A program made the translations under genes and the position numbers. From Planctomycetota bacterium (GTDB taxonomy: Bacteria; Planctomycetota; UBA8108; UBA1146): a stretch of DNA of 64,000 bases. Shown one piece after another: positions 14,697 to 62,159 of this stretch; within the stretch, counting starts at the first letter, position 1; each line of letters starts with the position of its first letter. The stretch spans positions 1 through 64,000 of the forward strand of contig JADHSM010000015.1 of NCBI GenBank assembly GCA_016776905.1. Direction: 5' to 3'. Below the pieces are notes generated by a model. The model saw only the letters and a list, made by a program, of their open reading frames with translations, did not search any database and was not told the origin of the DNA.

Positions 14697-14709
14697 AGAG
14701 CCCTCATTA

Positions 14710-33895: not shown

Positions 33896-34322
33896 GTTTT
33901 AATTTAAATCGCATGACTGATCCACCTCGATACCCTTACTCGTTATAAGCAAACAGCTTAAATGGTCGGAATTACAGGTACTCGGGTATTATTCTATACA
34001 TCGATACTCGACGAGTCATAGATATCTTGATCCTTGATGGACTCACCTGTCCATCGATGACGCCGCTCTCTAAGAAGTCGGCTTTTACTCCAATTTGAAC
34101 GCATCTTACGCCTCGATTCTTATTAAAAACCTGATCCAAACCCATCAACCTTTTATTCTAGAAGTACCAGTATTAGACGCTATTCATCCGAGCGCTTCAC
34201 TTCAGTATCGAAGCGAAATTGAACTATGAAGAAATGAACTTGGTGCCCTCAAAAGCACTCCAAGAAAAACAAGGGTTTTGAGTCTCTGACTCATTATTAG
34301 ATTAGAACGAGGAGAAGTGAAG
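33896..34322 (+). other. Gene-free leader before the first diheme protein gene
   Basis: About 430 bases with many stops in all frames, AT-rich at the left end. It must hold the promoter of the 34323 gene; I see no convincing -35/-10 pair, RNA gene or repeat. GAGGAG lies eight bases before the ATG. Confidence 0.5.
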
Positions 34323-36949: not shown

Positions 36950-37248
36950 GATCTCAGCCACATCATTACTTTCCTGACTTTGCAGACTTTACTTCCAACA
37001 CCATACAACGGTCTTGCACCTATATTGTTAATCCTATTAAATCTATACAGGTTAAGGGAAAAAGGATATGAAGCGCGATTCTTAACGTGCCGGTCCTGTA
37101 TTCTTGGCTTTACGGCTCACTGGATCACCCAGGATTCGTAATTGCTGCGTTGTTTTTAAGTAGGGGTGTTTGTTTATTGAGACGAGAAGTTTATCCAGTG
37201 TCATATTTCCTGGATAGACGATCGGTGTATATAGAATGGGTGTGTGTA

Positions 37249-46849: not shown

Positions 46850-47938
46850 ATGAAAATCGCGATTATTGGTGGCAGCATAGCGGGGCTCTCAACGGCATTA
46901 CGTCTTCAAAATAGCGGTCATGAAGTCTCCGTTTGGGAAAGAAGAAATCCTACTTCAAGCGGTGGATTCGGAATGCTGCTGGATCAAAAAACTTTGACGC
47001 GACTCTCATCTTTGGGCCTTCGCCTCGACCCCCAACTTCAAAAAGTAACAAAATACGAAGCACATGATATTCACTCCGGAAGAGTCGTTCGTCGTGGCCT
47101 AAACGGATCATTTGCGATTCAACGTTCAACGCTCATCGATCATTTAAAAAACGAAATTAAACACCACTCCTTGAATTACGATTTCGAGTTCACGCATTTC
47201 GAGCCCAATTCCGGAAACAATGTTCAGCGGGCCTGTTTCTCTAATGGTCACAAAATCGATGCTGATCTTTTCTTAGGAGCCGATGGCGTCCGATCCTCTG
47301 TGAGGAATTTACAAGTTCCAGGGCCAGATTTAACTCCAGTTAAAACTGTTGAGGTCGTCGGCATGGCTGATATGAATTCCCTGCCCGCCAAGAGTCGCAA
47401 CACGTTCAAGAAATACATACACCAAGGTAAAGGAATCGCATTTGGAATAGTCCCGTGCGCAGGCGACAAAGTGATCTGGTATTTCCAGATCGATAACAAT
47501 AAATGGCCCCAGTCACTGGGCTCTAACCATCAGAGAAACCAATGGCTGAGTGAAGAATTATCTCACTGGCCCCATCAAGTTCGCAGAATTGCCATGTCCA
47601 GTAGATTAGAGAACACACACCTCTGGAGAACAACAGATCGAGACTTGCCCTTACAATTCCATAGAGGCAATACTCTCTTAATTGGAGATGCGGCACATCC
47701 CCTCTTAACATTCACAAGTCAGGGTGTTGGCTCTTCCATTGAAGACGCGGTGATCCTTGGGGATTTACTCGACGAATACGAAAGCAGTCCACACCAAAAT
47801 TTGGACGACTGCCTTGGGGAGTTTTCTGCTATCCGAAAACCGATTCTCGAAGGCCATTTAAAAAACGGGCGTGATCTACAACAGCGGTTTCTCGGGCAAC
47901 GCCCTCACTGCATAGATACATATCCAGTGAGCGCATAA
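46850..47938 (+). CDS. FAD-dependent monooxygenase (copy 1)
   Basis: A 362-residue flavoprotein of the p-hydroxybenzoate hydroxylase type. IAIIGGSIAGLSTALRL is the FAD-binding Rossmann loop, LGADGVRSSVR the DG motif, LLIGDAAHPL the GD motif that binds the flavin ribityl. No membrane segments. AGGAG stands upstream of the ATG. Its paralogue at 50580-51674 shares length and motifs. The two flank a PLP enzyme and a secreted repeat protein in one direction, which suggests a small biosynthetic or catabolic set acting on an aromatic or heterocyclic substrate. Substrate is inference. Confidence 0.9.
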   Translation: MKIAIIGGSIAGLSTALRLQNSGHEVSVWERRNPTSSGGFGMLLDQKTLTRLSSLGLRLDPQLQKVTKYEAHDIHSGRVVRRGLNGSFAIQRSTLIDHLKNEIKHHSLNYDFEFTHFEPNSGNNVQRACFSNGHKIDADLFLGADGVRSSVRNLQVPGPDLTPVKTVEVVGMADMNSLPAKSRNTFKKYIHQGKGIAFGIVPCAGDKVIWYFQIDNNKWPQSLGSNHQRNQWLSEELSHWPHQVRRIAMSSRLENTHLWRTTDRDLPLQFHRGNTLLIGDAAHPLLTFTSQGVGSSIEDAVILGDLLDEYESSPHQNLDDCLGEFSAIRKPILEGHLKNGRDLQQRFLGQRPHCIDTYPVSA

Positions 47939-47970
47939 CTCACTTCTGTCATCAGGAAGAGATTTCTCTT

Positions 47971-49161
47971 ATGAATACCCGCCGTGACCCGTTCAACTTT
48001 TCGGAAGCTTCCATCGACAAAGAACAACTCAGAAAAACGGCTTTCAATCTCCGTTGGGCAACCGTGGATACTGACGTGATCCCACTCACTGCAGGAGAAA
48101 TGGACTTCCCTGTCGCCCCCGAAATTACAGAAGCCATCACTCGTCATGTGAGTCACGGATATTTGGGATACCTCCCTGATTTGGGATTACCATCATTCAG
48201 AGAAGCCGTATCTGAAAACCTGAGGAAAAATGGCGTTCAAGCCCACCCTGATAGAATCATGGCCACTGACGGCGCGGCGTCTGCGTTAAGAATCGCATGC
48301 AATTCCGTGCTTTCCCCCGGCGACGAGGCCATCACATTTGACCCCATAGATTTCTTACTTCCTCATTGCTCAAAAATGGCTGGAGCAAAAGTGATTCGAT
48401 GCCCACTGGAAAAGGGCACAGGAAGGCTGATTCCCGATTCACTTGAGCAGCTTGTTTCTGAGAAAACAAAAGCCCTCTTAATTTGCAATCCACACAACCC
48501 AACAGGCCGGGTATTGAGGAAATCTGAACTACTTGAGATCGCAGAATTCGCCGAGCGACACCACCTTGTGATTATCAATGACGAAGTATGGTCAGATATC
48601 ATTCTTGGCTCGACTCCGATGGTTCACTTATCTTCGCTGTCTGATGAGATTAGTCAGCGCACGATCACGATTTCTGGATTTTCAAAGAGCTATGGGATTT
48701 CCGGTTTAAGGATCGGATATATCCATTGTCAAAACAAAGAGCTCTTTCATCAGATTATCGAGCGTTCAGATGTAAAAAGCACGACTGCTGGGGCTTCTGT
48801 ATTGTCGCAAGTTGCTGCTGAAGCGGCGTTACTCAACTGCTCTGAATGGCTGACCTCGTTCCGAGCCCACCTTGTAAAAATCGTGGAAGAGGGCTCTCAA
48901 CGATTATCTGGCATTCCAGGATTCAGTTGTCCCATTCCCGAAGGCACTTTCTTACTCTTCCCTGATATTTCTAAAACTGGATACGACGAAGAAACTCTCT
49001 CTAAAGAGCTCTTCAGCAATGCGAGGGTCAGCGTGGTCCCTGGAGCAGAACGGTGGTTTGGCCCCGGAGCGAGGGATCATATCCGCTTATCCGTAGCAAC
49101 GTCGATGGAGACTTTCAATGAAGCCTTAAGTCGTATTGAGATATTTTTCAAACATCGATAA
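47971..49161 (+). CDS. PLP-dependent C-S lyase/aminotransferase, MalY/PatB type
   Basis: A 396-residue fold-type I PLP enzyme. VIPLTAGEMDFPVAPEI near residue 30 is the MalY/PatB hallmark (W-x-A-D/E-M-D-F), ICNPHNPTGR is the cofactor Asn region, INDEVWSDI the Asp region and SGFSKSYGISGLR holds the Schiff-base Lys. MalY/PatB enzymes cleave cystathionine and other beta-C-S bonds; related enzymes transaminate. It begins 32 bases after the monooxygenase stop with AGGAAGAG upstream and is probably cotranscribed. Cytoplasmic. Confidence 0.92.
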   Translation: MNTRRDPFNFSEASIDKEQLRKTAFNLRWATVDTDVIPLTAGEMDFPVAPEITEAITRHVSHGYLGYLPDLGLPSFREAVSENLRKNGVQAHPDRIMATDGAASALRIACNSVLSPGDEAITFDPIDFLLPHCSKMAGAKVIRCPLEKGTGRLIPDSLEQLVSEKTKALLICNPHNPTGRVLRKSELLEIAEFAERHHLVIINDEVWSDIILGSTPMVHLSSLSDEISQRTITISGFSKSYGISGLRIGYIHCQNKELFHQIIERSDVKSTTAGASVLSQVAAEAALLNCSEWLTSFRAHLVKIVEEGSQRLSGIPGFSCPIPEGTFLLFPDISKTGYDEETLSKELFSNARVSVVPGAERWFGPGARDHIRLSVATSMETFNEALSRIEIFFKHR

Positions 49162-49257
49162 TTATTCCGTCTGATCTTCCTGTTCTTTCGGATAAACATC
49201 CCTGGCCAATATTTGTTTCAATCAGGAAGCAACGCACCGCCAAGGAAGGAACTTAAA

Positions 49258-50340
49258 ATGAAGACTCATGTTATCGCTATTGCTTCTATTCTGATTGCAT
49301 TATCGAACCCATTCGTGCACGCAGACGATCAAGAATTGCCGTTTCTTTCGATGCTCCCTGGGAATCCGGGAACCGAGATCGAAGATTCTGAAGTTGAATT
49401 CGAGAGGATCGATGGCGCGATTATTATTGAAGCTGAAACAGAAGCGCTGCAACCTGGCCACGCATACACCGTTTGGGCTATCGTTTATAACGACCCTTCG
49501 GACTGCAATGGACGCTGCAGCATGGATGACGACTTAGCCAATGATAGCGCTAGCGTTCTTTGGTCCGGCGTCGGCGTGATCGCCGACAGTGATGGTGAAG
49601 TTGAATTTGAGGCGGTCCTCGTTGAAGGCGAAGCTGCTGGTGAAATCCTGTTTGGAAATGGGCTTACCGACGCAAGTAATGCGATCATTCAACTCGTAGT
49701 CCGGGGACACGGCCCAGCCTCAGACGACCCCATGGTTCTCGCCGATCAGTTGTCCCTCTTTATGGGGGGCTGTGACACCAATGATTGTTTAGACGAACAA
49801 GTGGTCACACTTGGAGAACCCGTCATTCTTCAAAAAGATCGCCAGCCCTTCATCGATCGCGATCCGGAAAACTTCGGTGAGGTCATTTCTAAATCCCGCG
49901 TAAAGGTAGAGCGGGAAAGTGATCGAATCGAGATCACTGGAAAAACACGCCAACTGACTCCCGGATACGCCTATACCATCTGGGCGATTGTCTACAACGA
50001 TCCATATGCTTGTTCCGGAGCTTGCGACGGAGACGATAGCAATGTGTCTGGCCGATCAGTCTTCTGGTCTGGAATTGGATTCGTCGCGAACAACAAAGGT
50101 CGAGCACACTTTGAAACTGATTTGATTGAAGGGTACCTTCCTGGAGAAGTTCGGTCAGGAAATGGCCTCACAGACGCGAGCATTGCGGAGGTTCACTTGG
50201 TGATCCGCTGCCATGGTCCCGCTGCACCGAATGGCTCAGAACTTCGCGAAGCTCAACTATCGACCTTTGATGGGGGCTGTGAGCAATACGGTTGCGTCAA
50301 TGTGCAATCCGCAATGCTGTGCAGACTTGCACAAATGTAG
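49258..50340 (+). CDS. Secreted protein with an internal duplication, unknown function
   Basis: A 360-residue protein with signal peptide (MKTHVIAIASILIALSNPFVHA). ATG 49258 has AGGAAGG upstream; an open frame 15 residues longer lacks that. Two copies of a domain of about 130 residues follow. Shared landmarks are PGHAYTVWAIVYNDP/PGYAYTIWAIVYNDP, then Cys-x3-Cys with Asp-rich residues, LWSGVGVIAD/FWSGIGFVAN, GNGLTDAS, and LVVRGHGPA/LVIRCHGPA, ending GGC...C. The paired Cys and Asp suggest disulfides and perhaps metal binding. No family name is known to me. A terminator follows at 50395. Confidence 0.75.
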   Translation: MKTHVIAIASILIALSNPFVHADDQELPFLSMLPGNPGTEIEDSEVEFERIDGAIIIEAETEALQPGHAYTVWAIVYNDPSDCNGRCSMDDDLANDSASVLWSGVGVIADSDGEVEFEAVLVEGEAAGEILFGNGLTDASNAIIQLVVRGHGPASDDPMVLADQLSLFMGGCDTNDCLDEQVVTLGEPVILQKDRQPFIDRDPENFGEVISKSRVKVERESDRIEITGKTRQLTPGYAYTIWAIVYNDPYACSGACDGDDSNVSGRSVFWSGIGFVANNKGRAHFETDLIEGYLPGEVRSGNGLTDASIAEVHLVIRCHGPAAPNGSELREAQLSTFDGGCEQYGCVNVQSAMLCRLAQM

Positions 50341-50394
50341 GAGGATAGATTTCCCCTGACCTGACACAGGTCTCCTCGGAAGCTATTCAAGACT

Positions 50395-50437
50395 GAAAGT
50401 ACCCCATTCGGCTAATGCCGGGCGGGGTACTTTCTTT
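50395..50437 (+). terminator. Rho-independent terminator
   Basis: An 11-bp stem, GAAAGTACCCC (50395-50405) and GGGGTACTTTC (50424-50434), with an inner CGGC-TAAT-GCCG hairpin in the loop, then TTTT. It ends the 46850-50340 transcript. Confidence 0.9.
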
Positions 50438-50579
50438 TCCCTTGTCCCGATAAAAAATTTCAGGAGAAAAGGTCGCCACGAGAGCCTCTAACGGTAGACT
50501 AAATCGCTATATAAGACACAAGAGTTCGTATTTACATGCAAGACACTATTGCTTCATTATTGACCTGCAAAGAGCCCAC

Positions 50580-51674
50580 ATGCTGAATATAGCCGTATTA
50601 GGCGCCTCTATTTCCGGATTGGCAATAGCGCTTCGCCTCCAGAGTTCTGGACATCAAGTCTCAGTGTGGGACGGACGAAGATCATTCAGCGCGAGCAATG
50701 CTGGTTGGTTGTTCAATCATTCCTCATTGGCCCATCTCAGAGAACTCGGCATCGATCTCGCCGACATGACTCACAGGATCACTTCAGGAGAACAGATTCC
50801 CCATCACTCGAAAAATGCAGCTGCTCATTTTGAGTCGATATCCACACATGGAATCCGACAGCAGGTGTTGCACGATCGATTACTCTTCAAGCTAGGTACC
50901 AAAAATATTCATCTCGGTGCTCAATTTGATGAGTTTCAACCCCAACAAGGATACATCGTTAAATCTGCTCGCTTCCTTGATGGCCGCGAAGTGTTCGCAG
51001 ATCTCTTTATCGGTGCAGATGGCGTTGATTCAAAAGTGCGATCTGTTCAAATTCCAGGACCTCAACTGAGGCCTTTAAATATCATGGAAATTCGTGGAAC
51101 AACGACGGTCCCGGAACTTCCCCGGGAACTTGTCAAATCCTTCAAACTTTACGAAAACAACCGTCTAGGGATGAACGTATACCTGATCCCGACAGCTGAA
51201 AACGACATCAGTTGGGGTCTCCAAATTGATCTCAACCGTCATCCGCTCAAAGAGTTTCATAGCAATGGCAAACTCAATGAGATTTCAGCCTCGCTCTCCG
51301 AATTCCCAAAACTAGTGCGCAGATGCATTCCCGCTTCCTCGCTCGCCAACGGTCAAATTAGGGCATCGAAAGATCAAGAGTTTCCAGACCGATTCCATAG
51401 AGGCAATGTTGTATTAATCGGTGACGCTGCCCATCCTCTCACTTCATTCCTGGGTCAGAGTATTGATTCTTCTCTCGAAGACACGCAGGTACTGGGCGAT
51501 ATGATCGACGATTTGAGTAGAGGTAATATTGCGGATTTAGAAACGTGCTTCACTGACTTTATACGGCAGAGAAGACCCATACTCAGAGCTCGGCAAAGAT
51601 TTATAAGAAACCAAGAATCAGCACTCAAGGGTCATTTAGCCGTCAAAAATCAGAACTCAGTAGTAACTCTCTAA
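50580..51674 (+). CDS. FAD-dependent monooxygenase (copy 2)
   Basis: A 364-residue paralogue of the 46850 enzyme. IAVLGASISGLAIALRL binds FAD (the first glycines are GAS instead of GGS), FIGADGVDSKVR is the DG motif, VLIGDAAHPLTSF the GD motif. The two copies agree in layout and in many motifs (SGHQVSVWDGRR versus SGHEVSVWERR; RFHRGN before the GD motif in both). It has its own start after a terminator and leader, so it is separately transcribed. It ends ten bases before the stop of the convergent decaheme cytochrome gene with no visible terminator between. Substrate unknown. Confidence 0.9.
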   Translation: MLNIAVLGASISGLAIALRLQSSGHQVSVWDGRRSFSASNAGWLFNHSSLAHLRELGIDLADMTHRITSGEQIPHHSKNAAAHFESISTHGIRQQVLHDRLLFKLGTKNIHLGAQFDEFQPQQGYIVKSARFLDGREVFADLFIGADGVDSKVRSVQIPGPQLRPLNIMEIRGTTTVPELPRELVKSFKLYENNRLGMNVYLIPTAENDISWGLQIDLNRHPLKEFHSNGKLNEISASLSEFPKLVRRCIPASSLANGQIRASKDQEFPDRFHRGNVVLIGDAAHPLTSFLGQSIDSSLEDTQVLGDMIDDLSRGNIADLETCFTDFIRQRRPILRARQRFIRNQESALKGHLAVKNQNSVVTL

Positions 51675-51684
51675 GGGATAGTTC

Positions 51685-53820
51685 TTACTTCTTTTTGAAG
51701 ATTTCCATAGTCGCGGTATTGAGTTCTCTGATAAACGGCGAAGCGTGGTACTTATGACACAGAATGCAGTCCTGCTGAATCTGCTGACCATGACACTCTA
51801 AGCAACTTTCTTTCGACACCGACAACCAGTCGTGCCCCCCCGCACTTTTCGTTTCAGCAGGGGTGTGACAGGTATTGCACTGTCGACCTTCATCATTAAA
51901 GACATGAGACGCATGATTAAAGTGGGTGAAATCGAGATCTTTGATTTCCTTCTCATGGCCCCAATTCACTTCTTGCCCAGCGATCCCCAAGCCGACATGA
52001 CACTTCTGGCATCTTCCTGCCGAGTACTCCCCTGTGAGCTCTTTCAGGATATCTCCGGAAAACTTGTCCCTGTTTTCGTTTCGACTCTCCAATTCAATCC
52101 ATGCTTTTAGGAATGAATCCGCATGCTGAACAGGCCTGTACCACAATGACGGGCCATCGAGATACCACCCTCCTGCATTTGCCCAATCCACTCCCGTGAC
52201 AAATCTGCGATACTCATCTGCTCTCTTCTCCGATGCTCGATCTCCATAAGAATGCGCAGTATTTTCCGCAAGCATATCGTCTTCGCCCGCGAGCATGTCG
52301 TCTTCGCCGGCAAGCATATCGTCTTCGCCTGCGAGCATATCGTCTTCGCCTGCGAGCATATCGTCTTCGCCGGCGAGCATATCGTCTTCGCCGGCAAGCA
52401 TGTCGTCTTCGCCGGCAAGCATATCGTCTTCGCCGGCAAGCATATCGTCTTCGCCGGCGAGCATATCGTCTTCGCCGGCTACCATGTCGTCTTGACTGTT
52501 TTTGCCCTGCTCAACTTCGTCGACAACCGTAAGATTCAGGGGCTCTTCATTTTCAATGGCGACGAACCACTGTTCCTGAACGAACTGAAGCAAAGCATGC
52601 GGAAACTGCCCCGATAAATCGGAAAGCTCATCGAGGCTTAAATCTGCGACAGTGGGAGACATCCACCGAGCGACCCACTGTTGTAAATCTTCTTCAAGTG
52701 CAGCAGCCCATTCCGTCTGGGTCAACTGAACGAAATCTTCGACGTCTTTCAGCCTTTCGATCGGAGCCCTTTCAAGACGACTTAAGTTCAGATCAGATAA
52801 CTGATCGAAGCTGTCTCCAACTTCCCCATTGAGAAACCACCTTTTCGTCCAGGCATTGGTTCTTCCCTCGGGATATTTCGCCCAACTATATGTCTGAAGC
52901 CCATGGTCATTCAAAGTTTGGAAATCAACTTCAGGGAGTTTAAAGATTTCGATTCCCTGATTCTTTCCCTGGGCCCCTTGCCCTGATATTTCAGAAGAAT
53001 GACAACCGCCACATGATTCAGCGAAAGGCAGCACACTCATCGCTCCAGTGTTGACTTCTAAAGAATGGCATCCTGCACAAGTTGCAGGTGCTTGATCAGG
53101 AACTTCAATGAAGTGCCTCAAACTGTGAGTGCTGTGATCAAAATTAAAGCTACGCGGCTTCAGTCCATATGAATCAGAAAAATCAGCATGACCCTTTGAA
53201 AAGGAATCGAACTTTTCTTGATGGCAATTTTGACATCGTCTGTCATTCATATTCAAGAAGGTGCCCGAAGACTGATGTTCTTGGTGACATTGAGCGCATT
53301 CAGTCTCATCCTGCAACTCTGATATATCTTTTTCAGGGTACAGCTCAGCCCATGTTGCCGGATCTAACCCATGTGACTTCCGTGAATGATCACCGAGATC
53401 ATGACAGTTTACACAACCTTGGCTCCCCAGATTATCGTGGGTTCCCCCCAGCACATTCGCAAAAAGGCCACCAAAGCTATTCAAGTTCTCACTGTGACAT
53501 GCAGCGCAATCTAATTTTCCATGCGCATGAGAGAGAGGGCCTGGTGAGAATATCTCTTGTTGAAAAATCTGGCCTTCATTCTGAGTCATAGCAAAAAGTA
53601 CCAAACCTAAAGTGAGTACGAATGCACTACGAACTGTCTTGGATCTCCACCAACCTTCGGAATGCATCGGTGAACATTCACTGTCAGTATTCTGACAAAG
53701 CCCAGAAGCGGATGGTCCTCTTGAACATGGCTGCCCTGGCCGACCACACGTCCAAGGCTTATCGGGTCGGAGATAACGAGTTTTGCGAGAATCAAAAGAT
53801 CCTCGATGACCAGAACTCAT
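51685..53820 (-). CDS. Membrane-anchored decaheme cytochrome c with acidic heptad repeat
   Basis: A 711-residue protein with ten CXXCH heme sites: CAACH, CVNCH, CAQCH, CQNCH, CAGCH, CGGCH (residues about 105-275), then CQKCH, CNTCH, CLECH, CILCH (about 600-700). The start ATG 53820 overlaps the stop of the cytochrome b gene (ATGA) behind GGGAGGGG. A polar, Cys-containing N-terminus of about 60 residues precedes one membrane helix (62-79), so the heme domain lies outside. Between hemes 6 and 7, residues about 447-516 are ten exact GEDDMLA-type heptads. Histidine motifs such as HSTHSLRHF and FNHASHVF can supply distal ligands. Last gene of the redox operon; it probably takes electrons from the cytochrome b. 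Not recognised as a named cytochrome. Confidence 0.88.
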   Translation of the reverse strand: MSSGHRGSFDSRKTRYLRPDKPWTCGRPGQPCSRGPSASGLCQNTDSECSPMHSEGWWRSKTVRSAFVLTLGLVLFAMTQNEGQIFQQEIFSPGPLSHAHGKLDCAACHSENLNSFGGLFANVLGGTHDNLGSQGCVNCHDLGDHSRKSHGLDPATWAELYPEKDISELQDETECAQCHQEHQSSGTFLNMNDRRCQNCHQEKFDSFSKGHADFSDSYGLKPRSFNFDHSTHSLRHFIEVPDQAPATCAGCHSLEVNTGAMSVLPFAESCGGCHSSEISGQGAQGKNQGIEIFKLPEVDFQTLNDHGLQTYSWAKYPEGRTNAWTKRWFLNGEVGDSFDQLSDLNLSRLERAPIERLKDVEDFVQLTQTEWAAALEEDLQQWVARWMSPTVADLSLDELSDLSGQFPHALLQFVQEQWFVAIENEEPLNLTVVDEVEQGKNSQDDMVAGEDDMLAGEDDMLAGEDDMLAGEDDMLAGEDDMLAGEDDMLAGEDDMLAGEDDMLAGEDDMLAGEDDMLAENTAHSYGDRASEKRADEYRRFVTGVDWANAGGWYLDGPSLWYRPVQHADSFLKAWIELESRNENRDKFSGDILKELTGEYSAGRCQKCHVGLGIAGQEVNWGHEKEIKDLDFTHFNHASHVFNDEGRQCNTCHTPAETKSAGGHDWLSVSKESCLECHGQQIQQDCILCHKYHASPFIRELNTATMEIFKKK
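52271..52480. repeat. In-frame 21-bp tandem repeat, ten units
   Basis: Ten units of AGCAT(A/G)TCGTCTTCGCC(G/C/T)GC(A/G), coding GEDDMLA on the reverse strand, with an eleventh degenerate copy at 52481-52494. Variation is confined to third codon positions. It also creates long accidental frames on the other strand. Confidence 0.97.
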
Positions 53821-54644
53821 GATGCCCCTCCCGAAGAAAACCCAAGTACCAAAAAGATATGCAGGGCGATCAGAATAAACAGAACCGCAGTCAAAGGCAC
53901 ATGCAAGAACAGCCAACCTCTGATCCATCTTTGATGCACGATCATTCGATCAAGATCAGATTTTTCTCGAATAAGTTTATGAAAGGGCCTTGAGCTTTCA
54001 GTAGAGAACAGTATCGAAGGTGGTAAATATAATGCCAATTTTTGAACTATTGGAGTCGGAATCTCTAGCTCGTTATGCCTTTTACTATGAAGCAAACCGG
54101 GTCTGGCATTCAGAAATGGTCGAATGACTTCTGTGTAACCCATTATGATTCTCTCAGACAAAGCACCTTCTTCAACCTTGAGAACCAAAGCATCGGCTTC
54201 TTCCAATATTTCACTACGCCTGAAAGGGATTCGTGACGGATGTAAATTTTCAACGTCTGCGCGCATAGGCTTGGGCAACCAACGCATGATGAACCAACCT
54301 ATAAAGCCTGACCCCATCAATAAAAGGTATATGAAATATAAAGCAACTTCAAAACTACCTTGTGGCCACGCGAAACCAGAATGAACTAAAAACAAATATC
54401 CACTCAGTAAACCAATGCCCAAATGCAGTTGCAGCCAACTTGAAGTTTTTCCTATTGGAAGAAAAGGAAACTTCTTTCTCATTCCATATAAAGCAAGAAT
54501 GATAAAGCTGCCAAGAAGTAACCAACCGCTTTCATATGCAAGACTCACCAATTCACCCGACTTGATATCCAAGTAGTTTTGAATAACAAAAAAAACCAGG
54601 ATAAGACCCAGCAATATCAGTGGCTTTGGCTGACGGATAGTCAT
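53817..54644 (-). CDS. Small diheme b-type membrane cytochrome
   Basis: A 275-residue membrane protein with five hydrophobic helices. Helix 3 (residues about 72-92) has His in LHLG and in LVHSGF, 14 positions apart; helix 5 has His in LHVPL and in ALHIF, also 14 apart. Two helices each with two His at 13-residue spacing are the pattern of two stacked b hemes, as in cytochrome b and related quinol-dehydrogenase subunits. Between helices 4 and 5 is a cytoplasmic domain of about 110 residues. The gene overlaps the ferredoxin gene upstream and the decaheme gene downstream by ATGA, so the three are made together. It would pass electrons through the inner membrane. Confidence 0.8.
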   Translation of the reverse strand: MTIRQPKPLILLGLILVFFVIQNYLDIKSGELVSLAYESGWLLLGSFIILALYGMRKKFPFLPIGKTSSWLQLHLGIGLLSGYLFLVHSGFAWPQGSFEVALYFIYLLLMGSGFIGWFIMRWLPKPMRADVENLHPSRIPFRRSEILEEADALVLKVEEGALSERIIMGYTEVIRPFLNARPGLLHSKRHNELEIPTPIVQKLALYLPPSILFSTESSRPFHKLIREKSDLDRMIVHQRWIRGWLFLHVPLTAVLFILIALHIFLVLGFSSGGAS

Positions 54645-56314
54645 CCTGTAATCTTTTCAATGACGCGCGTCACCTTTGAAATGTCTGAGAAATCAACTCT
54701 GTGAAGAGCATCATGCGGGCATGCATTTGCACAAGCAGGCCCAGATGGTTGATCGATACACAAATCACATTTCGTGGCTTTAAGTGCGGGCTTCCCCGTT
54801 TCGAGATTAATGATGGGATTCCCGGCAGCATCATGTATTTCAACAGATCTAATGTTGTTGTATGGGCACGACTCTACACATGTACCGCAACCAATACATT
54901 CATTGGTAGTAATAATTACATTACCCGTATTGGCTTCTCTGTGAATCGCACCTGTTGGGCAACCCACAAGACATACAGGGTCAGCGCAATGCATACAGGC
55001 AGTTGCCACCATGAGCTCTGCATGACGGTGTCCTTCCCTAATAAAGCGAGGGTTACCTCCATGCGTGACGGCACAAGCTTTAACGCAGTCATCGCAATCT
55101 GTGCACCGATTCAAGTCGATAATCATCGTCTGGTTGCCGTTGACAATTCGCCTATCCACGAAAAAATCTAGCAACTCGCGAGATATATATCCTTCTTCAT
55201 TCGACCTGCCAGTCTCAATACCTTTTTGGATTTCCGGCAACACATGTTCGTTAAAATCTGATTTCGGAATAATCACTAGATCTAATGCACCCACGGCTCT
55301 AATCGTGTGGAAGGCAACTTCGTCCTCACCCCGTTCGTCCATCCGTGTCAACTCTTTTAATCCGTAAACATCTCCGGGACGCAGATACCCTGTCGTCGAT
55401 TCTTGGCCACCATCTTTTCGAGTCACTCTCGCAAATCCATTTAGAACTACATAGAGTCCGTCCATATGATGGCCTTGATTCAGGACAACTGCTTCCTGAT
55501 CCAACAGTGACTTGTCAGAATTTATCACCTTCCTGAAATTGCGATTCCAATCATCTGAACCGTGTCTTTCAAAGACGGCCTTCGAAGATATAGTTCTCTG
55601 AACATCTTCTGATAGATTCTGAATCATATTCACAAAGGAAAATATTTGGTGCCTACGATCTCCTATGATGTCCTCTAGGAATCGTTCGAATTCATTCGAA
55701 CGAGCAAGTAAATCACGAACGCCTTGCCAACGAATTTCGACCAGCTTGCAATCAGTACCTGCAAATACAGATGCCGTCCGAGGGCACCTTCTAAGAGCGG
55801 CGATTTCACCAAAGATTTCGCCGATCCCAATTCTTCGTGTCAAATTTTGGCTGACAAACTTGTCAATATCAGTATTTAATCTCGGCTTCCGACCTGCACT
55901 CCCAGATATTTCTTCTTGGCTCACAACTCGACTGAATGTTTCCTGTGTTTTTTTCTTTTTGAACAACTGACCGATTGCAGAAAACCAACTTCTTTTTTCT
56001 AATTTTGATTTTCGAGCAAAGCGATGCTCTTGAGATTGCTCAAGGTTTACTCTGACCGTTCCCTCGATTGGAATAAGAACAGAGCCACCGTAATCACCTT
56101 TTCTGAGAATAATTTCTGACTTTTCGTAAGAAACTATCCGAGCATCATTTTGCAATATGTCCTCAAATGATGATCCGCGCTTTTTGTAATCACTCAATAC
56201 GATGGAAAGTACCGAGTTCACCTTTAACCAATCCAGAATTTCTTCCGGAACGGGCACCTTGCTAAAGCAATGCTCCCGGGAGTCTATTTCCTGGTTGTTG
56301 GTTTCATTACGCAT
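54641..56314 (-). CDS. Two cyclic-nucleotide-binding domains fused to a four-cluster ferredoxin
   Basis: A 557-residue cytoplasmic protein (no signal). CNB domain 1 (about residues 60-230) includes EIILRKGDYGGSVLIPIEGTV, a charged insertion of about 65 residues, then the phosphate-binding cassette GEIFGEIAALRRCPRTASV with the FGE and RTA residues needed for cNMP. CNB domain 2 (about 270-370) has the fold (VLNQGHHMDGLYVVLNGFA) but its cassette is not canonical. From about 395 comes a DmsB/PsrB-type ferredoxin with four 4Fe-4S motifs: CTDCDDCVKAC, CMHCADPVCLVGC, CIGCGTCVESC, and CDLC...CANAC. It overlaps the cytochrome b gene (ATGA) and should feed it electrons, perhaps under nucleotide control. 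Similar CNB-ferredoxin fusions occur in other bacteria to my recollection; function unknown. Confidence 0.9.
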   Translation of the reverse strand: MRNETNNQEIDSREHCFSKVPVPEEILDWLKVNSVLSIVLSDYKKRGSSFEDILQNDARIVSYEKSEIILRKGDYGGSVLIPIEGTVRVNLEQSQEHRFARKSKLEKRSWFSAIGQLFKKKKTQETFSRVVSQEEISGSAGRKPRLNTDIDKFVSQNLTRRIGIGEIFGEIAALRRCPRTASVFAGTDCKLVEIRWQGVRDLLARSNEFERFLEDIIGDRRHQIFSFVNMIQNLSEDVQRTISSKAVFERHGSDDWNRNFRKVINSDKSLLDQEAVVLNQGHHMDGLYVVLNGFARVTRKDGGQESTTGYLRPGDVYGLKELTRMDERGEDEVAFHTIRAVGALDLVIIPKSDFNEHVLPEIQKGIETGRSNEEGYISRELLDFFVDRRIVNGNQTMIIDLNRCTDCDDCVKACAVTHGGNPRFIREGHRHAELMVATACMHCADPVCLVGCPTGAIHREANTGNVIITTNECIGCGTCVESCPYNNIRSVEIHDAAGNPIINLETGKPALKATKCDLCIDQPSGPACANACPHDALHRVDFSDISKVTRVIEKITG

Positions 56315-56335
56315 CAGGTCTCTCTTCGGAAATCC

Positions 56336-57349
56336 TCAATTTTTATATTCAGACGGATCAGGAAGTAACGAATCAATGCCCGCTAAAGATGATCCATCCG
56401 ATGTAGCCGAGAAATTGTCCAAAAACTCTCCCGCTTTTTTCGAAGCAGGAATCAGTGCTTCTCTGGCTTTAAAACTCAACCCCACTGTTTTGAGATATTG
56501 AGCAAATTCCAACATACTTTCGTCCTTGGATGCAGCGGCTACAGATATGAACTGCTTCCGTAAGTTTGAAAATCTCTTTGCATGTGTTTTCACATAAATA
56601 TTCATCGCGTTAGCATTACCTATGGAGCTCAGAAGAACTTCTATTTCAGCAACCATACCCACGACATATAGAACTCTTTTACGTTCCGCCGAAGCAACTT
56701 TGTTTTCTTTCCCATTCGTATAAAAATTATTATGGCGCATATTTCCTTGGCTCCATGAAAGGAGCTCGAAATTTGAAACAGCAGGGTGCCCACCCGTCGC
56801 CACCAGTTCTTCATGATCAATCACGTGACAACTCACGCAGTTCCTCGCGATGTCTGCGATCATGCTAGGGCGCAACATTCCAGCGGCTTCTGAAGCCTTC
56901 CACCGCTTTGCGGCTTCTGCTTCCGTTTCTTCATCCTCTTCCTTGCCGCTAAACTCCCCGTGTACAGTCACCCAGCCCATTCCTGCACCATGGCACGACT
57001 CACACGACACTCCTGCTTCGACAGTCATTTCGTTGTGCTCGGAGTCCCACATTTCTGTCCCATGACAACTCGTGCAAAGTGATTCTTTGACTCGTCTTAA
57101 TCCCATTTTATCAATGATCTCTTTCGCCTTGGGAGATCTGGGCATATCAGTAATCGTTTTATAGTGAACCGTATTCTTCCAAACTTCTGCGGAATGCTTG
57201 TGACAATCTACGCACTTTTCAACTCCGACGATCGCCTTATGGTTGAAACCTGGGCCCGTCACTGGCTCCGCTGATTCATCTAGATTTGGCCCATTTACAG
57301 CCAATAGGGAGATACTAACCAAGCCAATTAAAACTAACTGTTGAATCAT
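56336..57349 (-). CDS. Tetraheme cytochrome c (c554-like)
   Basis: A 337-residue exported protein with signal peptide (MIQQLVLIGLVSISLLAVNG). Four CXXCH sites: CVDCH with the nearby EVWKNTVHYKT, CTSCH, CESCH and CVSCH, all within the first 180 residues. Spacing and the GxxCVDCHxxxxxxWxxxxH motif resemble cytochrome c554/multiheme electron carriers of the HAO and NrfB type. The C-terminal 140 residues are helical without heme. It sits 21 bases upstream of the CNB-ferredoxin gene and 50 bases downstream of the flavoreductase. Likely a periplasmic electron shuttle of the operon. Confidence 0.88.
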   Translation of the reverse strand: MIQQLVLIGLVSISLLAVNGPNLDESAEPVTGPGFNHKAIVGVEKCVDCHKHSAEVWKNTVHYKTITDMPRSPKAKEIIDKMGLRRVKESLCTSCHGTEMWDSEHNEMTVEAGVSCESCHGAGMGWVTVHGEFSGKEEDEETEAEAAKRWKASEAAGMLRPSMIADIARNCVSCHVIDHEELVATGGHPAVSNFELLSWSQGNMRHNNFYTNGKENKVASAERKRVLYVVGMVAEIEVLLSSIGNANAMNIYVKTHAKRFSNLRKQFISVAAASKDESMLEFAQYLKTVGLSFKAREALIPASKKAGEFLDNFSATSDGSSLAGIDSLLPDPSEYKN

Positions 57350-57399
57350 TTTGCATTCTCTTTCATGAATATTTCTTCGACTAAATCTGTCGGTATTTT

Positions 57400-58665
57400 T
57401 CAGGCATCGATTTCTACATCGCCTTCAGGCATTCCAACACACGACAGGCAATTGCCAGCATCTGGTTCAGCCGAAGGTTCATCTTCGTAACTTATCTTCC
57501 CGGATACCACTTTCACTTGGCATGTTCCACAACTGCCGGCTCTGCAACTGCTCTCTATTTCGACGTCATGCTCTTCTGCCATATCGAGAATTGAACTCGA
57601 GCCGTCCCATGGGACGGTGACGTCACTCTTGGAGAAATGAATCTTTCTAGTTTTAGAATTCAATTTTCCCTGATCTGTTTTTTGATCGCCACTTTCTGGA
57701 TCTTTCTTTTTCTTCACCGAAGCAGGTCCAAATGCTTCCAACAGAATATCTGAAGACGTCACTCCTGCTTCTTCTAATGCGGGAACCAACGCTCCCATCA
57801 TCGGTGGTGGGCCACACAGATAAAACTGTGCCTCAATATGGCCAACCGTATCCTTGATCGCGTCAATGCTGAGGAAGCCGGTCTTGATGCCGTCCTCTAA
57901 TACGGAGTCTTCTTTTGGTGAACTGTAATATGTGTGCAGTGATACATTCGGATTTCCCTCCGCCAATTCTTTGAGGCTTTGAGCGAATGCGTGATCGTCT
58001 GAATTTCTAACCGCATGAAAAAAGTGACAGACTCTGTCTATTTTTTTATCGCAGATCGCCTCGAGCATGCTCAATAAAGGAGTGACTCCAATTCCCCCAG
58101 CAATAAACACCGCAGGTCGCTGATCATGACGATCTAGGCAAAACTTGCCTGCTGGAGCTTTCACTTCGATGGTTGAGCCAATTTCTAAATCCTCATGAAA
58201 GTATGAAGATCCCCGCCCTGGTGGATGACTTGTTCCTGGTGGTGGCGGAACCTTTTTTATAGTCACTCTGTAAGTATTGGAAATCGGATCTCCTGAGCTG
58301 AGCGAATAGGTACGAATCAAATGCTTTGATTCGCCAGGAATTTGGAATTTGAATCCCAAATGTTGGCCCGGCTCATATGGACAAATCGCTTCTTCGTCTA
58401 AGGGGCTCAGATAAAAAGAGCATATGTCTTGAGCTTCCATCACCCGATTCGACACTCTAAATCTGCGATACCCTTTCCATTTCAGACTTCCCGAAACGAC
58501 CTGGGTTTTCTCCTGTCGCAGCAACTGATCCTTCAGATCTTTTGCCTCTAACTGGAACCGCTGCGCTCTTAACCTTGATTCCCAAATGGAGTTTACGATC
58601 CCCAAGATGGCATCTATGAAAAAGAGCGCCAGCAGTGCGATGGCGACGTAAAATACTACTTCCAA
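57400..58665 (-). CDS. Membrane-anchored FAD/NAD(P) oxidoreductase with C-terminal 2Fe-2S domain
   Basis: A 421-residue protein with an N-terminal membrane helix (VVFYVAIALLALFFIDAILG) and coiled linker, then a ferredoxin-NAD(P) reductase module: IRTYSLSSGD binds FAD, FIAGGIGVTPLLSML and FYLCGPPPMM bind NAD(P). From about 335 a plant-type 2Fe-2S domain has Cys in SSCRAGSCGTCQ and in NCLSCVG. This is the Hmp-less, Hcr/CDO-reductase order (FNR then 2Fe-2S), reversed from NqrF, though both share a membrane anchor. Start is TTG at 58665 with GGGGAG upstream. It lies ten bases after the barrel gene. If the module faces the cytoplasm it could oxidise NAD(P)H for the chain. Confidence 0.9.
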   Translation of the reverse strand: MEVVFYVAIALLALFFIDAILGIVNSIWESRLRAQRFQLEAKDLKDQLLRQEKTQVVSGSLKWKGYRRFRVSNRVMEAQDICSFYLSPLDEEAICPYEPGQHLGFKFQIPGESKHLIRTYSLSSGDPISNTYRVTIKKVPPPPGTSHPPGRGSSYFHEDLEIGSTIEVKAPAGKFCLDRHDQRPAVFIAGGIGVTPLLSMLEAICDKKIDRVCHFFHAVRNSDDHAFAQSLKELAEGNPNVSLHTYYSSPKEDSVLEDGIKTGFLSIDAIKDTVGHIEAQFYLCGPPPMMGALVPALEEAGVTSSDILLEAFGPASVKKKKDPESGDQKTDQGKLNSKTRKIHFSKSDVTVPWDGSSSILDMAEEHDVEIESSCRAGSCGTCQVKVVSGKISYEDEPSAEPDAGNCLSCVGMPEGDVEIDA

Positions 58666-58674
58666 AATACTCCC

Positions 58675-60135
58675 CTAAAACCTCATGAGGATTTCTGCTC
58701 GAAGTCCGTATCCACTTTCTCCGCCTTCTTCTTTTTTGGTATAAGCATCCATCTGCAACATGGTTCTTCCAGTTAACTTTTTCTGGTATCGGGAGCCGAA
58801 TGCTCCTGCTGCAGGGCCGTCTCCTTCGAGAGGTGAACGCCCACCCAATTCAAAGACCAGGTTTGAAGCACCTTCATCTATTGAAAATTGGTAACCTACT
58901 GATCCCCCATATGAATCATCTGCTCTGTTACCGAGTGCGGGTTTATATCTACCCAATCCAGCTGCCGCAAATAACAAACCCGCTTTCCCGAGAGGTCCGC
59001 CATTCGTCTCTCCACGTGCAGCCGAAGCGAACTCATCAATCCCCAGAAAGAACGTGGCGTAGGCGTTATCCATTGTGCCTGCGGGGGTCGTTGACGCTTC
59101 CGCAAACAGCAATGTGCCATCGCTGACAGCGGCATTGTCCGGATCCGCAGCCATGGAACTGCACAATCTAATCGTCGTGTTAAACGTATTCGTTTTTGAT
59201 TTAATTCTTTGAGAAGATCCCAATCCCACGAACCAACCAGAACCCCCTTCATCCTCCGGGGCTTCCACATGTACCACATCGAAATCAATTGTTCTTTTGT
59301 ATGTATCTGCTTCAGCGGAGAAGGAAAGATATCGCGATCCCGTGGACAATAAATTGTTATCGCGACTGACCTCGTCCCATCCGGCAATGACGGTCATACG
59401 AGTTGTCGCTGTGCCCGGTATAGAAACAAATCGAGTCACACCGACAGCATCCATTGAGTCATTAACGAGTAGTCCGTCTTGTAGATCGACTCTCCAACGG
59501 CCCACGCTAAATCCGTAATCTAACTTCTTAGTTCCATCTGGATCCAAAACGGGAAACAACTCTGAAAGTTCTCCCTCGAAAAAGAAAGTCGTAATGCGGT
59601 CATTGACCTCATCGACCCAACCTTCTTCACTCTCCGGTTCAAATACATACCTAGAAAAACTACCTCTTTGATGTAATGGCTGCATACCTATCAGGAAGCG
59701 TTCTGTTCCTGTCAATTGGAGGTTGCCGAACAGATCCATTCTCTGGGCCCACTCGACGATGCGATCACCCGCACCCGCTGGCTCTACGACATTGATCCCC
59801 GATCTCAAATTACCGTAGACCCAAAACGAAGGTCTCCAGACTGCTCCTCCGGGAACATCGAACCCTCGCTCTAATCTCCCTGTCTCCATGAGACCCGGTC
59901 CGATTTGAATAATCGGCGGATGGGGCTGGATGAGGGATTCGTCTATCAATGGGATCGGGTGATCGGGCAGCCGACTAGGACTCTCGTCTTCTTGAGCCCA
60001 TGCCGGAGACGCCACACACGTAGTGATCATAAGGATCAATATTCCGTCTACAAATTGCCGAGCCATAGAAGCCTTCTTGTTTGCAATTCTCGGCCTTGCA
60101 GAATTTCTGGTTGGGAATAGTTGAGAGGTCATCAT
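58675..60135 (-). CDS. Outer-membrane beta-barrel-like protein of the redox operon
   Basis: A 486-residue exported protein with a long n-region and signal (FVDGILILMITTCVASPAWAQ). Its ATG overlaps the stop of the pentaheme gene (ATGA); ATG 60066 is a possible later start. The mature part shows amphipathic strands with aromatic ends and loops rich in Gly/Asp, and ends with Phe (ILMRF), as expected for an outer-membrane barrel. A Pro-rich segment (about residues 55-80) precedes the barrel. No family recognised. By its place between multiheme cytochromes it could act as the porin part of a porin-cytochrome conduit, like MtrB in Mtr systems; that role is inference. Confidence 0.72.
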   Translation of the reverse strand: MMTSQLFPTRNSARPRIANKKASMARQFVDGILILMITTCVASPAWAQEDESPSRLPDHPIPLIDESLIQPHPPIIQIGPGLMETGRLERGFDVPGGAVWRPSFWVYGNLRSGINVVEPAGAGDRIVEWAQRMDLFGNLQLTGTERFLIGMQPLHQRGSFSRYVFEPESEEGWVDEVNDRITTFFFEGELSELFPVLDPDGTKKLDYGFSVGRWRVDLQDGLLVNDSMDAVGVTRFVSIPGTATTRMTVIAGWDEVSRDNNLLSTGSRYLSFSAEADTYKRTIDFDVVHVEAPEDEGGSGWFVGLGSSQRIKSKTNTFNTTIRLCSSMAADPDNAAVSDGTLLFAEASTTPAGTMDNAYATFFLGIDEFASAARGETNGGPLGKAGLLFAAAGLGRYKPALGNRADDSYGGSVGYQFSIDEGASNLVFELGGRSPLEGDGPAAGAFGSRYQKKLTGRTMLQMDAYTKKEEGGESGYGLRAEILMRF

Positions 60136-62159
60136 TTTGACCCTTCTTCACTTTTTGAAGTCACTGTTTTCCTTTGGGCGATAACGACCGCGCCATCGAC
60201 CAACTTCTTTGCGAGCTCTCTCGGTGTGAGATTGTAGTCAAACCCTACGTGCATCGTCTGGTGAATGAGATTTACAGGTAATGACTGCGATATAAATCGA
60301 GCTTCAATCGTATAGGGTCCTTCTCCCGTTAACTGCTCAGCATCAACGAAGTAGGATGCCGTTCTCTTACCCAGTGGCTCGATCCCTCGTCGATGTTTCC
60401 TCATACCTTTTGGATGCCCATAGATGTTATTAGGCCTGGAAGCAGGTCGAATAAATGGAAGTGCTGATACTGAACTGTTGATCGTCAGCACTTGCTCTCT
60501 GTCGCCTCCCCGAATGTTCCTAGACATGAACTTCGACTGCAAATTAAAGAGCTGTTGGTCGAGTTGAATCTCCCCGCTTCGAACATATAAGGAGAATGAA
60601 TCCCTAAGATCGCCATTCGGATCCCGATCACCGGACTGGAAGACAATGTTTCCTGCTGAATCCGAGACATCGATTTGAACAACGAACACACGTTCCGCAT
60701 CGAATCCCGTCGGGAGGTTGTGGCCTTTTGTCAGATTCTTGACATCTATTTCAAAGCCGAGTCCGTCTTCGTCATCATCTGTGATTCGTATGTCAGAAAG
60801 CCCAAATCCTCTTTTTAGAACTTCTATTCTTTGAGTCTTCGCCCACTCCAACAGTTCTATCTGATCATCAATGATATCCCGGGCATCGTACCGGTCGTCG
60901 ATGGCCGCCCAGCTCTCCGGAAACTCGTAATCATCCGGGCAACTATCTTCGAATTGGTCTGTGCCCCATCCTGCTTCCACATCGAACAGAATCCACTCCG
61001 ACAAATCTTTGAACTCGTTCGCCTTTTTGTTGACCGGGAAAATACCTTCATGAATCAGTGAATAATCGGGGCCCGCAAAAAAGTGATTGGTCAGTTTCCT
61101 GGGAGCAGATTCTTTCCCTCCGACGACCGCTGCTGGTCCCCACTCATAACCGGTAGGTATCCCCTGCTCTTTTCCCATATGGCAATCATTGCAAGTAATG
61201 CCTTCTTCGGCAGCAGGTGAATTTCGGTACTCGGTCAACAACTCATGTACCCGTAATCCATTGGGCGCAAATACCTCATGACAAGTTCCGCAAAAAGCGG
61301 GGGTTGTCAGTTCGAAAAACGGTTCGATTTCTCCATGAATCGCACGCCCTACGCTATCTCTGTCAGTATTCACTTTAAATTGCTTCGTATCAGCGAGGAC
61401 TCTCGCCAACTCTTCATTACCCAAGGCACCCTTGACGGAATCGAAAATGTCACCTTGATCGATACCAATACGCCCTGACACTTTTCTGTAACCGGCACTC
61501 ATTCGGTGGCAAGTGACGCAAGTGATACCTTCTCTTGAAGCCGGATGGCGATCGAGATTTGAGGCACTAAATGGTTCTCCAATATCGGATCCCACTGGGG
61601 CATGACAACGGAGGCAAAAGTCTCCATTTGTGGTACTAGTGCCCACATTCATGGCATTTTGCATCGACATCATCATCGGGCTCAACTGCGAATATGCGTG
61701 CTGAGATACAGACCATTCCTTGTATTGCTTGGGATGGCAAAGAGCGCATTCATCCGCTGAAGGGAAATTGCTGGCGGCAAAAATCTTTTCATGTGCCGCA
61801 GAAGCCTCATCTTTTTTCTCGGGCTCCTCTTCTTTTCCAACCTCTGACGTATCGTCACCCAACATGTCGTCACCCAACATGTCATCGCCCAACATGTCAT
61901 CGCCCAACATGTCATCGCCCAACATGTCATCGCCCAACATGTCGTCTTCCAACAAATCATCAGAACCAGATGGATCTTGCTGAGCGGGAGGATCTTGCTG
62001 AGTAGGTGGATCTTGCTGAGCGGGTGGATCTTGATAAAGAGCCGTGGCTTGCTGCGATATTCCAAGGAATAAAAATCCCACAATTGAAAAGCTCAACAAC
62101 AATATACTCAGAGATATACGACTATCATTCGTATTTCCTGTAGACCTTTTGTCCTTCAT
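60132..62159 (-). CDS. Secreted pentaheme cytochrome c with acidic pentad repeat
   Basis: A 675-residue exported protein, first gene of the redox operon. Signal peptide (LSILLLSFSIVGFLFLGIS), then three QDPPxQ repeats and six LGDDM pentads (residues about 70-99). Five CXXCH sites follow: CALCH (with PKQYKEWSVSQHAYS), CLRCH, CVTCH, CGTCH and CNDCH, in the first 340 residues, with the layout of the c554/HAO-like multiheme family. The C-terminal 240 residues lack hemes and look like a beta-sandwich (GFEIDVKNLTKGHNLPTGF). The heme-free half may bind the partner or surface. Upstream are two inverted repeats (62229-62283) that may control the operon. Confidence 0.88.
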   Translation of the reverse strand: MKDKRSTGNTNDSRISLSILLLSFSIVGFLFLGISQQATALYQDPPAQQDPPTQQDPPAQQDPSGSDDLLEDDMLGDDMLGDDMLGDDMLGDDMLGDDMLGDDTSEVGKEEEPEKKDEASAAHEKIFAASNFPSADECALCHPKQYKEWSVSQHAYSQLSPMMMSMQNAMNVGTSTTNGDFCLRCHAPVGSDIGEPFSASNLDRHPASREGITCVTCHRMSAGYRKVSGRIGIDQGDIFDSVKGALGNEELARVLADTKQFKVNTDRDSVGRAIHGEIEPFFELTTPAFCGTCHEVFAPNGLRVHELLTEYRNSPAAEEGITCNDCHMGKEQGIPTGYEWGPAAVVGGKESAPRKLTNHFFAGPDYSLIHEGIFPVNKKANEFKDLSEWILFDVEAGWGTDQFEDSCPDDYEFPESWAAIDDRYDARDIIDDQIELLEWAKTQRIEVLKRGFGLSDIRITDDDEDGLGFEIDVKNLTKGHNLPTGFDAERVFVVQIDVSDSAGNIVFQSGDRDPNGDLRDSFSLYVRSGEIQLDQQLFNLQSKFMSRNIRGGDREQVLTINSSVSALPFIRPASRPNNIYGHPKGMRKHRRGIEPLGKRTASYFVDAEQLTGEGPYTIEARFISQSLPVNLIHQTMHVGFDYNLTPRELAKKLVDGAVVIAQRKTVTSKSEEGSK
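61861..61950. repeat. In-frame 15-bp tandem repeat, six units
   Basis: Six units of AACATGTC(A/G)TC(G/A)CCC, the last ending TTCC, coding LGDDM-type pentads on the reverse strand just after the signal peptide of the pentaheme cytochrome. Four inner copies are identical. Confidence 0.97.

Follow-up and report, generated by a model that had tools for sequence, protein, structure and literature searches.

A PCC4-type porin-cytochrome operon of Planctomycetota and its possible link to cyclic nucleotides

The PCC4 system was proposed in 2017, first from neutrophilic iron oxidisers (He et al. 2017, PMC5566968). It combines a porin with tetra-, penta- and decaheme cytochromes of the periplasm, an inner-membrane protein termed IMP and further redox proteins. 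Five transmembrane helices, an SGxxG motif and two WX3HX13H motifs define the IMP. In subgroup II the IMP gene has a gene for a pfam13247 Fe-S protein upstream of it and the tetraheme gene a redox gene; Planctomycetes are already among the hosts of this subgroup (PMC5566968). The function of PCC4 in extracellular electron transfer is hypothetical, being a genomic prediction (PMC5566968), and among the searchable later literature we found only one mention of the system by name.

Here we describe an operon from a Planctomycetota genome (contig JADHSM010000015.1 of assembly GCA_016776905.1), found in a stretch of 64,000 nucleotides that we call the window. It is well supported as a new member of this predicted system and not a new system. 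The additions that are worth testing are a cyclic-nucleotide connection and a porin-type barrel, and the apparent novelty lies in evidence for a cyclic-nucleotide signal that may turn the system on and off.

Gene set, assignment and distribution

The operon consists of seven open reading frames on the minus strand, spanning 51685-62159 (10.5 kb) and transcribed in the order g1 (62159-60132), g2 (60135-58675), g3 (58665-57400), g4 (57349-56336), g5 (56314-54641), g6 (54644-53817) and g7 (53820-51685). ATGA overlaps are found at 60132, 54641 and 53817, and the non-overlapping junctions have gaps of 9, 50 and 21 bases. There are 19 CxxCH motifs, five in g1, four in g4 and ten in g7. Both the layout and the count of c-type hemes agree with a preliminary description made from the sequence letters. 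The decaheme protein most likely starts at 53820, giving 711 aa, in preference to the longest-ORF start at 53928. Domains were called with Pfam and NCBIfam, which back the cytochromes, an FAD/NAD/2Fe-2S reductase and a ferredoxin with two cNMP domains, while the Pfam search gave no match for the b protein g6 or the barrel g2. Scans of the operon for promoters and terminators gave a signal at the level of shuffled sequence. Convergent on the operon, at 46850-51674 on the plus strand, are FAD_binding_3 monooxygenases and an aminotransferase, which are kept downstream of the operon in the same family (L033-L037 and L074-L080 in our numbering of loci). The window also encodes, at 34317-36863 and 37087-39759 on the plus strand, two large tandem proteins with CCP_MauG (di-heme peroxidase) domains.

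The preliminary description held that this set matched no described complex, and named a match of the whole set to a described complex as one of the findings that would overturn its view. PCC4 subgroup II is such a match by architecture. The three multiheme cytochromes of the operon have 4, 5 and 10 hemes, and it also encodes a porin (g2, a predicted barrel) and an IMP, g6, carrying SGxxG and two WX3HX13H motifs; the pfam13247 gene g5 lies upstream of g6, and the redox gene g3 upstream of the tetraheme gene g4. It is almost certainly a PCC4 member of the subgroup II type, an assignment made on architecture.

To follow the system in other genomes we used g5, which is single-copy in its own genome, with otherwise weak and partial matches. 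Close relatives, defined in the Planctomycetota scan by E <= 1e-60, were present in 28 of 294 Planctomycetota genomes, 20 of 289 genomes of Alphaproteobacteria (a sample centred on the class of the Ferruginivarius genome), 10 of 195 Verrucomicrobiota and 22 of 77 Nitrospinota. A scan of named genomes recovered the same four groups, with Tistlia, Minwuia and Ferruginivarius for the Alphaproteobacteria, and also records labelled Myxococcales or Myxococcota, several of which are MAGs, the labels being those of the depositors. All seven genes occur in at least 25 of 80 loci and the five-gene core g3-g7 in at least 18 of 80, both figures being lower bounds because gene calling was simple and contig ends cut into loci. 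The genes are arranged differently from group to group, and therefore the gene set, not only its order, is conserved, and the heme counts are the same in operons of Planctomycetota, Alphaproteobacteria, Nitrospinota and Verrucomicrobiota. The neighbourhood comparison thus bore out the expectation of a conserved system, with the b, decaheme and flavoreductase genes recurring with the CNB-ferredoxin. This recurrence of heme counts, gene set and motifs in homologs of at least four phyla is far beyond chance, and it makes PCC4 a coherent unit across several phyla, common in Nitrospinota, in which heme counts and heme-ligand histidines are fixed.

Some loci depart from this pattern. Three Planctomycetota loci (L165, L166 and L170) have the cytochromes, partly with the porin and b protein, and no CNB-ferredoxin or flavoreductase nearby, and so resemble PCC4 subgroup I. 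L161-L164 carry g1-g2 pairs near CNB-ferredoxins with 15-17-heme cytochromes, a larger-cytochrome version, and an Opitutales locus (L102) has a second putative barrel with a weak BBP2_2 match directly downstream of g7, at 13759-14757. Spread by plasmid was considered and rejected, a tblastn search of g5 against plasmids having given no match.

Cytochromes and the outer-membrane barrel

The three cytochromes are an exported pentaheme cytochrome c of 675 aa with a Cytochrome_C554 match (g1, 60132-62159, minus strand), an exported tetraheme cytochrome of the Cytochrome_C554 family (g4, 56336-57349, minus strand, PF13435) and a membrane-anchored decaheme cytochrome with an N-terminal Cys-rich tail (g7, 51685-53820, minus strand). 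Their heme motifs are essentially invariant in up to 94 aligned sequences, and the five motifs of g1 are found in 54 of 57 sequences, the other three being cut short. Beyond these motifs there are six conserved histidines for the five hemes of g1, four invariant ones for the four hemes of g4 and ten conserved ones for the ten hemes of g7. Judged on the alignments, these could be enough to ligate every c heme as bis-His, which is consistent with g1, g4 and g7 being wires with no open catalytic heme. Nrf-, Phs- and HAO-type complexes were rejected as candidates, no NCBIfam model scoring above its cut-off for any of the cytochromes, and the closest matches to described complexes lie far under curated cut-offs.

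Pentaheme g1 matches the penta-heme cytochrome c552 of Thermochromatium tepidum (5ze8) with E=1.4e-12 in phmmer and 9e-16 with a profile, and its model finds the same structure in Foldseek at 3e-11. By sequence and modelled fold g1 is homologous to this protein, and it groups with the c552/ExtKL-type pentahemes. The Cys-rich tail of g7 (53656-53775, minus strand) has the pattern CGxxxxPCxxGPxxxGxCxxxxxxCxP, for which Pfam holds no credible family; the g7 of the operon has a single copy, many homologs carry it twice in tandem, and it is lost in L122 and L125. Because the tail lies ahead of a transmembrane anchor that is preceded by an Arg-rich stretch, it is probably cytoplasmic. Both genes also contain in-frame tandem repeats outside the conserved columns, a 21-bp unit repeated 10.8 times in g7 (52268-52493, giving DMLAGED repeats), and a 15-bp unit repeated 6.5 times (61858-61954, GDDML) and an 18-bp unit repeated 3.5 times (61971-62033) in g1. 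The pentaheme gene is tandemly duplicated in the sister genus (L036, L037, L078 and L080).

Adjacent to g1 lies g2 (58675-60135, minus strand), which encodes a protein of 486 aa with a C-terminal Phe. AlphaFold2 folds it into an outer-membrane beta-barrel of about 18 strands (pLDDT 80.2, pTM 0.74) of Occ/OprD/AlgE-like form, and in Foldseek the model matches AlgE (1.3e-10) and the OccK family, while a g2 profile found no sequence match among solved barrels in the PDB. The genes g1 and g2 are neighbours in nearly all intact loci inspected. A g2 homolog is found in 16 of 18 selected core-bearing genomes, mostly unlinked to the core, and across 294 Planctomycetota genomes it is present in 26 of 28 with g5 and 13 of 266 without (Fisher 2e-25). 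When genomes are collapsed to families (about 90 assumed), all nine g5-bearing families have it. The porin therefore co-occurs with the core nearly always, even when unlinked.

The models support the barrel-like protein of the preliminary description, but its outer-membrane conduit is still only a possible one, the predicted barrel being of the Occ/AlgE type with about 18 strands, unlike the 26-strand MtrB sheath. An Mtr-like insulated wire, with g1 (or g7) inside the g2 barrel and electrons passing straight through the outer membrane, would suit the near-obligate adjacency of g1 and g2 and the general porin-cytochrome gene layout. We consider it improbable, however, since MtrB needs 26 strands to hold MtrA (PMC7198977), the closest folds to g2 are Occ/AlgE and g7 bears an inner-membrane anchor. 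By rough geometry the lumen would be about 23 A wide in g2 and about 38 A in a barrel of 26 strands, and this narrower barrel makes an Mtr-like sheath doubtful, within the limited accuracy of the model. More likely, g2 would pass a small electron acceptor or shuttle, in or out, with g1 as its partner.

The resemblance of g2 to substrate-specific Occ porins, together with the grouping of g1 with c552/ExtKL-type pentahemes, could also point to a periplasmic reductase, in which g2 imports a small oxidised substrate, g1 is the terminal reductase and nothing is transferred outside. This is somewhat unlikely, as the six conserved additional histidines of g1 leave no obviously open heme site among its five hemes and the gene neighbourhood carries no substrate signal. 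Among the operon proteins there is neither an evident catalytic heme nor an evident terminal reductase.

Cytoplasmic input and direction of electron flow

On the cytoplasmic side, g3 (57400-58665, minus strand) encodes a reductase of 421 aa with an N-terminal membrane anchor and FAD, NAD(P) and plant-type 2Fe-2S domains (PF00970, PF00175, PF00111), the FAD, NAD and cluster residues of which are near-invariant in 80 sequences. The product of g5 (54641-56314, minus strand) is a cytoplasmic Fe-S protein with two CNB domains (PF00027 twice) and a four-cluster ferredoxin (PF13247, PF12838). The ferredoxin domain, at 54695-55135 on the minus strand, is matched by HydN/DmsB/DsrO-type models, and its 16 cysteines are invariant in up to 94 aligned sequences.

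The integral membrane protein g6 (53817-54644, minus strand, 275 aa) corresponds to the IMP of PCC4. It carries W70xxxH74-x13-H88, S112GxxG116 and W244xxxH248-x13-H262, a full motif set that appeared in 0 of 20,000 shuffles. Both WX3HX13H motifs are present in 71 of 71 homologs and SGxxG in 61 of 71, and the four b-heme histidines are invariant in up to 94 aligned sequences. A simple hydropathy count gives four transmembrane helices in the window protein and three to five in homologs. There was no match to the PDB, and Pfam gave no match to the FRD domain (PF01794), although its paired-His spacing is the same as in NOX and ferric reductases. The diheme b membrane protein proposed earlier is thus upheld by paired motifs in the window protein and all of its homologs, as is the overall layout of NAD(P)H, FeS, b and multiheme c components.

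The combination of NAD(P)H and Fe-S subunits, a diheme b protein and an anchored decaheme suggests g6 as the point at which electrons cross between cytoplasm and periplasm, and an electron line from the cytoplasm to the outer-membrane module is probable. In our proposal NAD(P)H would reduce the FAD and 2Fe-2S cluster of anchored g3, from which electrons would pass to the four 4Fe-4S clusters of g5 and then to the two b hemes of g6 to cross the inner membrane. Membrane-anchored decaheme g7 would receive them and hand them to tetraheme g4 and then to pentaheme g1. Taken as a whole, a line of this kind that is linked to NAD(P)H and gated by a cyclic nucleotide is a reading that we favour with some reserve.

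The direction along this line is on balance outward, because the cytoplasmic input module is retained and because reducing NAD(P)+ with electrons of an external donor would run uphill. He et al. modelled the opposite direction for the same gene set from neutrophilic iron oxidisers, with electrons passing from an extracellular donor to quinone (PMC5566968). On such a model Fe(II) or another external donor would be oxidised at the porin-cytochrome module and feed g6 and quinone, with g5 and g3 serving uphill NAD(P)+ reduction, and by analogy the b protein may be quinone-active. We regard an inward conduit as rather unlikely here, given the NAD(P)H/FeS module conserved with the set, the many hosts that are not known metal oxidisers and a quinone site that is putative. 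The host genome encodes a heme-copper oxidase; oxygen respiration by the host is therefore probable, and the operon is unlikely to be its sole terminal route.

Outward flow is the reading that we prefer, and it should be gated because electrons leaving through g6 would dissipate the membrane potential, as outward electron flow does in NADPH oxidases.

Cyclic-nucleotide link and relation to known systems

The candidate gate is the first CNB domain of g5, CNB1, which would bind cAMP or cGMP. Its phosphate-binding cassette (55766-55819, minus strand) lies around E170 and R179, both invariant in 94 of 94 sequences, aligns to the cassettes of PKA and PKG and has the FGExA...PRxA pattern with the Glu and Arg of ligand-binding domains of the PKA/PKG/CRP type. 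CNB2 has no phosphate-binding cassette. Clusters resembling subgroup I are without the CNB-ferredoxin, which is therefore not essential in every version of the system.

A possible source of the ligand was found in 11 Planctomycetota loci, where a class III cyclase is the divergent neighbour of the core. The gaps are about 170-345 bases where measured, the adjacency in L042 and L086 having been read from gene maps. The genomes tested hold one to six class III cyclases, and the probability of such a neighbour by chance is about 0.0005 per genome if 850 genes per Mb are assumed. The cyclases fall into sequence groups with less than 30% identity, which suggests that the adjacency is not a single recent event. 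All 11 keep both metal-binding Asp residues and the transition-state Arg, and 9 of 11 the catalytic Asn, while the canonical substrate-specifying Lys is absent, so that the product may be either cAMP or cGMP. The genome of the window has three class III cyclases, none of them beside the operon, and none was seen immediately adjoining the operon in the loci of other phyla. In L038 and L071 the divergent position held by the cyclase in other Planctomycetota is occupied by a Ser/Thr kinase gene.

Direct gating of the system by a cyclic nucleotide through g5 is slightly less than an even prospect. More tentatively, the PCC4-type complex would be a ligand-gated electron valve in several phyla, in which a cyclic nucleotide binds the ferredoxin subunit and opens or closes the flow of NAD(P)H electrons to the outer-membrane module. 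The ligand would come, in many Planctomycetota and just as tentatively, from a dedicated cyclase whose gene lies divergently next to the operon. Alternatively the CNB domains could be structural or bind another ligand, with no cyclic-nucleotide gating and with the neighbouring cyclases incidental, a possibility to which we give somewhat less than even weight. CNB folds can lack a ligand, CNB2 is degenerate and two of the adjacent cyclases look impaired; against this, E170 and R179 do not vary in the 94 sequences, and cyclases that are rare in each genome are nevertheless adjacent and divergent in sequence. If the cassette is functional, gating would place a respiratory-type electron line under direct binding of a second messenger to an Fe-S subunit, and we know of no second-messenger control of this form in extracellular or envelope electron transfer. 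In a search of mostly open-access literature we found no paper linking PCC4-type, multiheme or porin systems to cyclic nucleotides.

The nearest described system is PCC4 subgroup II, which shares with the operon the porin, the cytochromes, the motif-bearing IMP and the positions of the pfam13247 and redox genes. Gene order differs between phyla across PCC4-type clusters. The word "cyclic" occurs 0 times in the main text of He et al. 2017, which has no cyclase linkage, no Cys-rich tail on the decaheme and no Verrucomicrobiota or Nitrospinota hosts of PCC4 (PMC5566968). The DmsB, NrfC and HydN four-cluster ferredoxins share the 16-Cys domain with g5; unlike them, g5 is fused to two CNB domains and has no molybdopterin partner in the operon. 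NOX and ferric reductases (FRD) likewise join an FAD/NAD(P) domain to a membrane protein that holds two b hemes by paired His, but here these are separate polypeptides and there are additional FeS clusters and c hemes. The c552 of T. tepidum is a relative of g1 in sequence and fold and, unlike g1, is not known from this evidence to have a porin partner. MtrCAB, MtoAB and PioAB resemble the operon in combining a barrel with a multiheme cytochrome and in their bis-His heme chains, whereas the operon has a barrel with about 18 predicted strands in place of 26, a pentaheme partner and a cytoplasmic NAD(P)H/FeS input.
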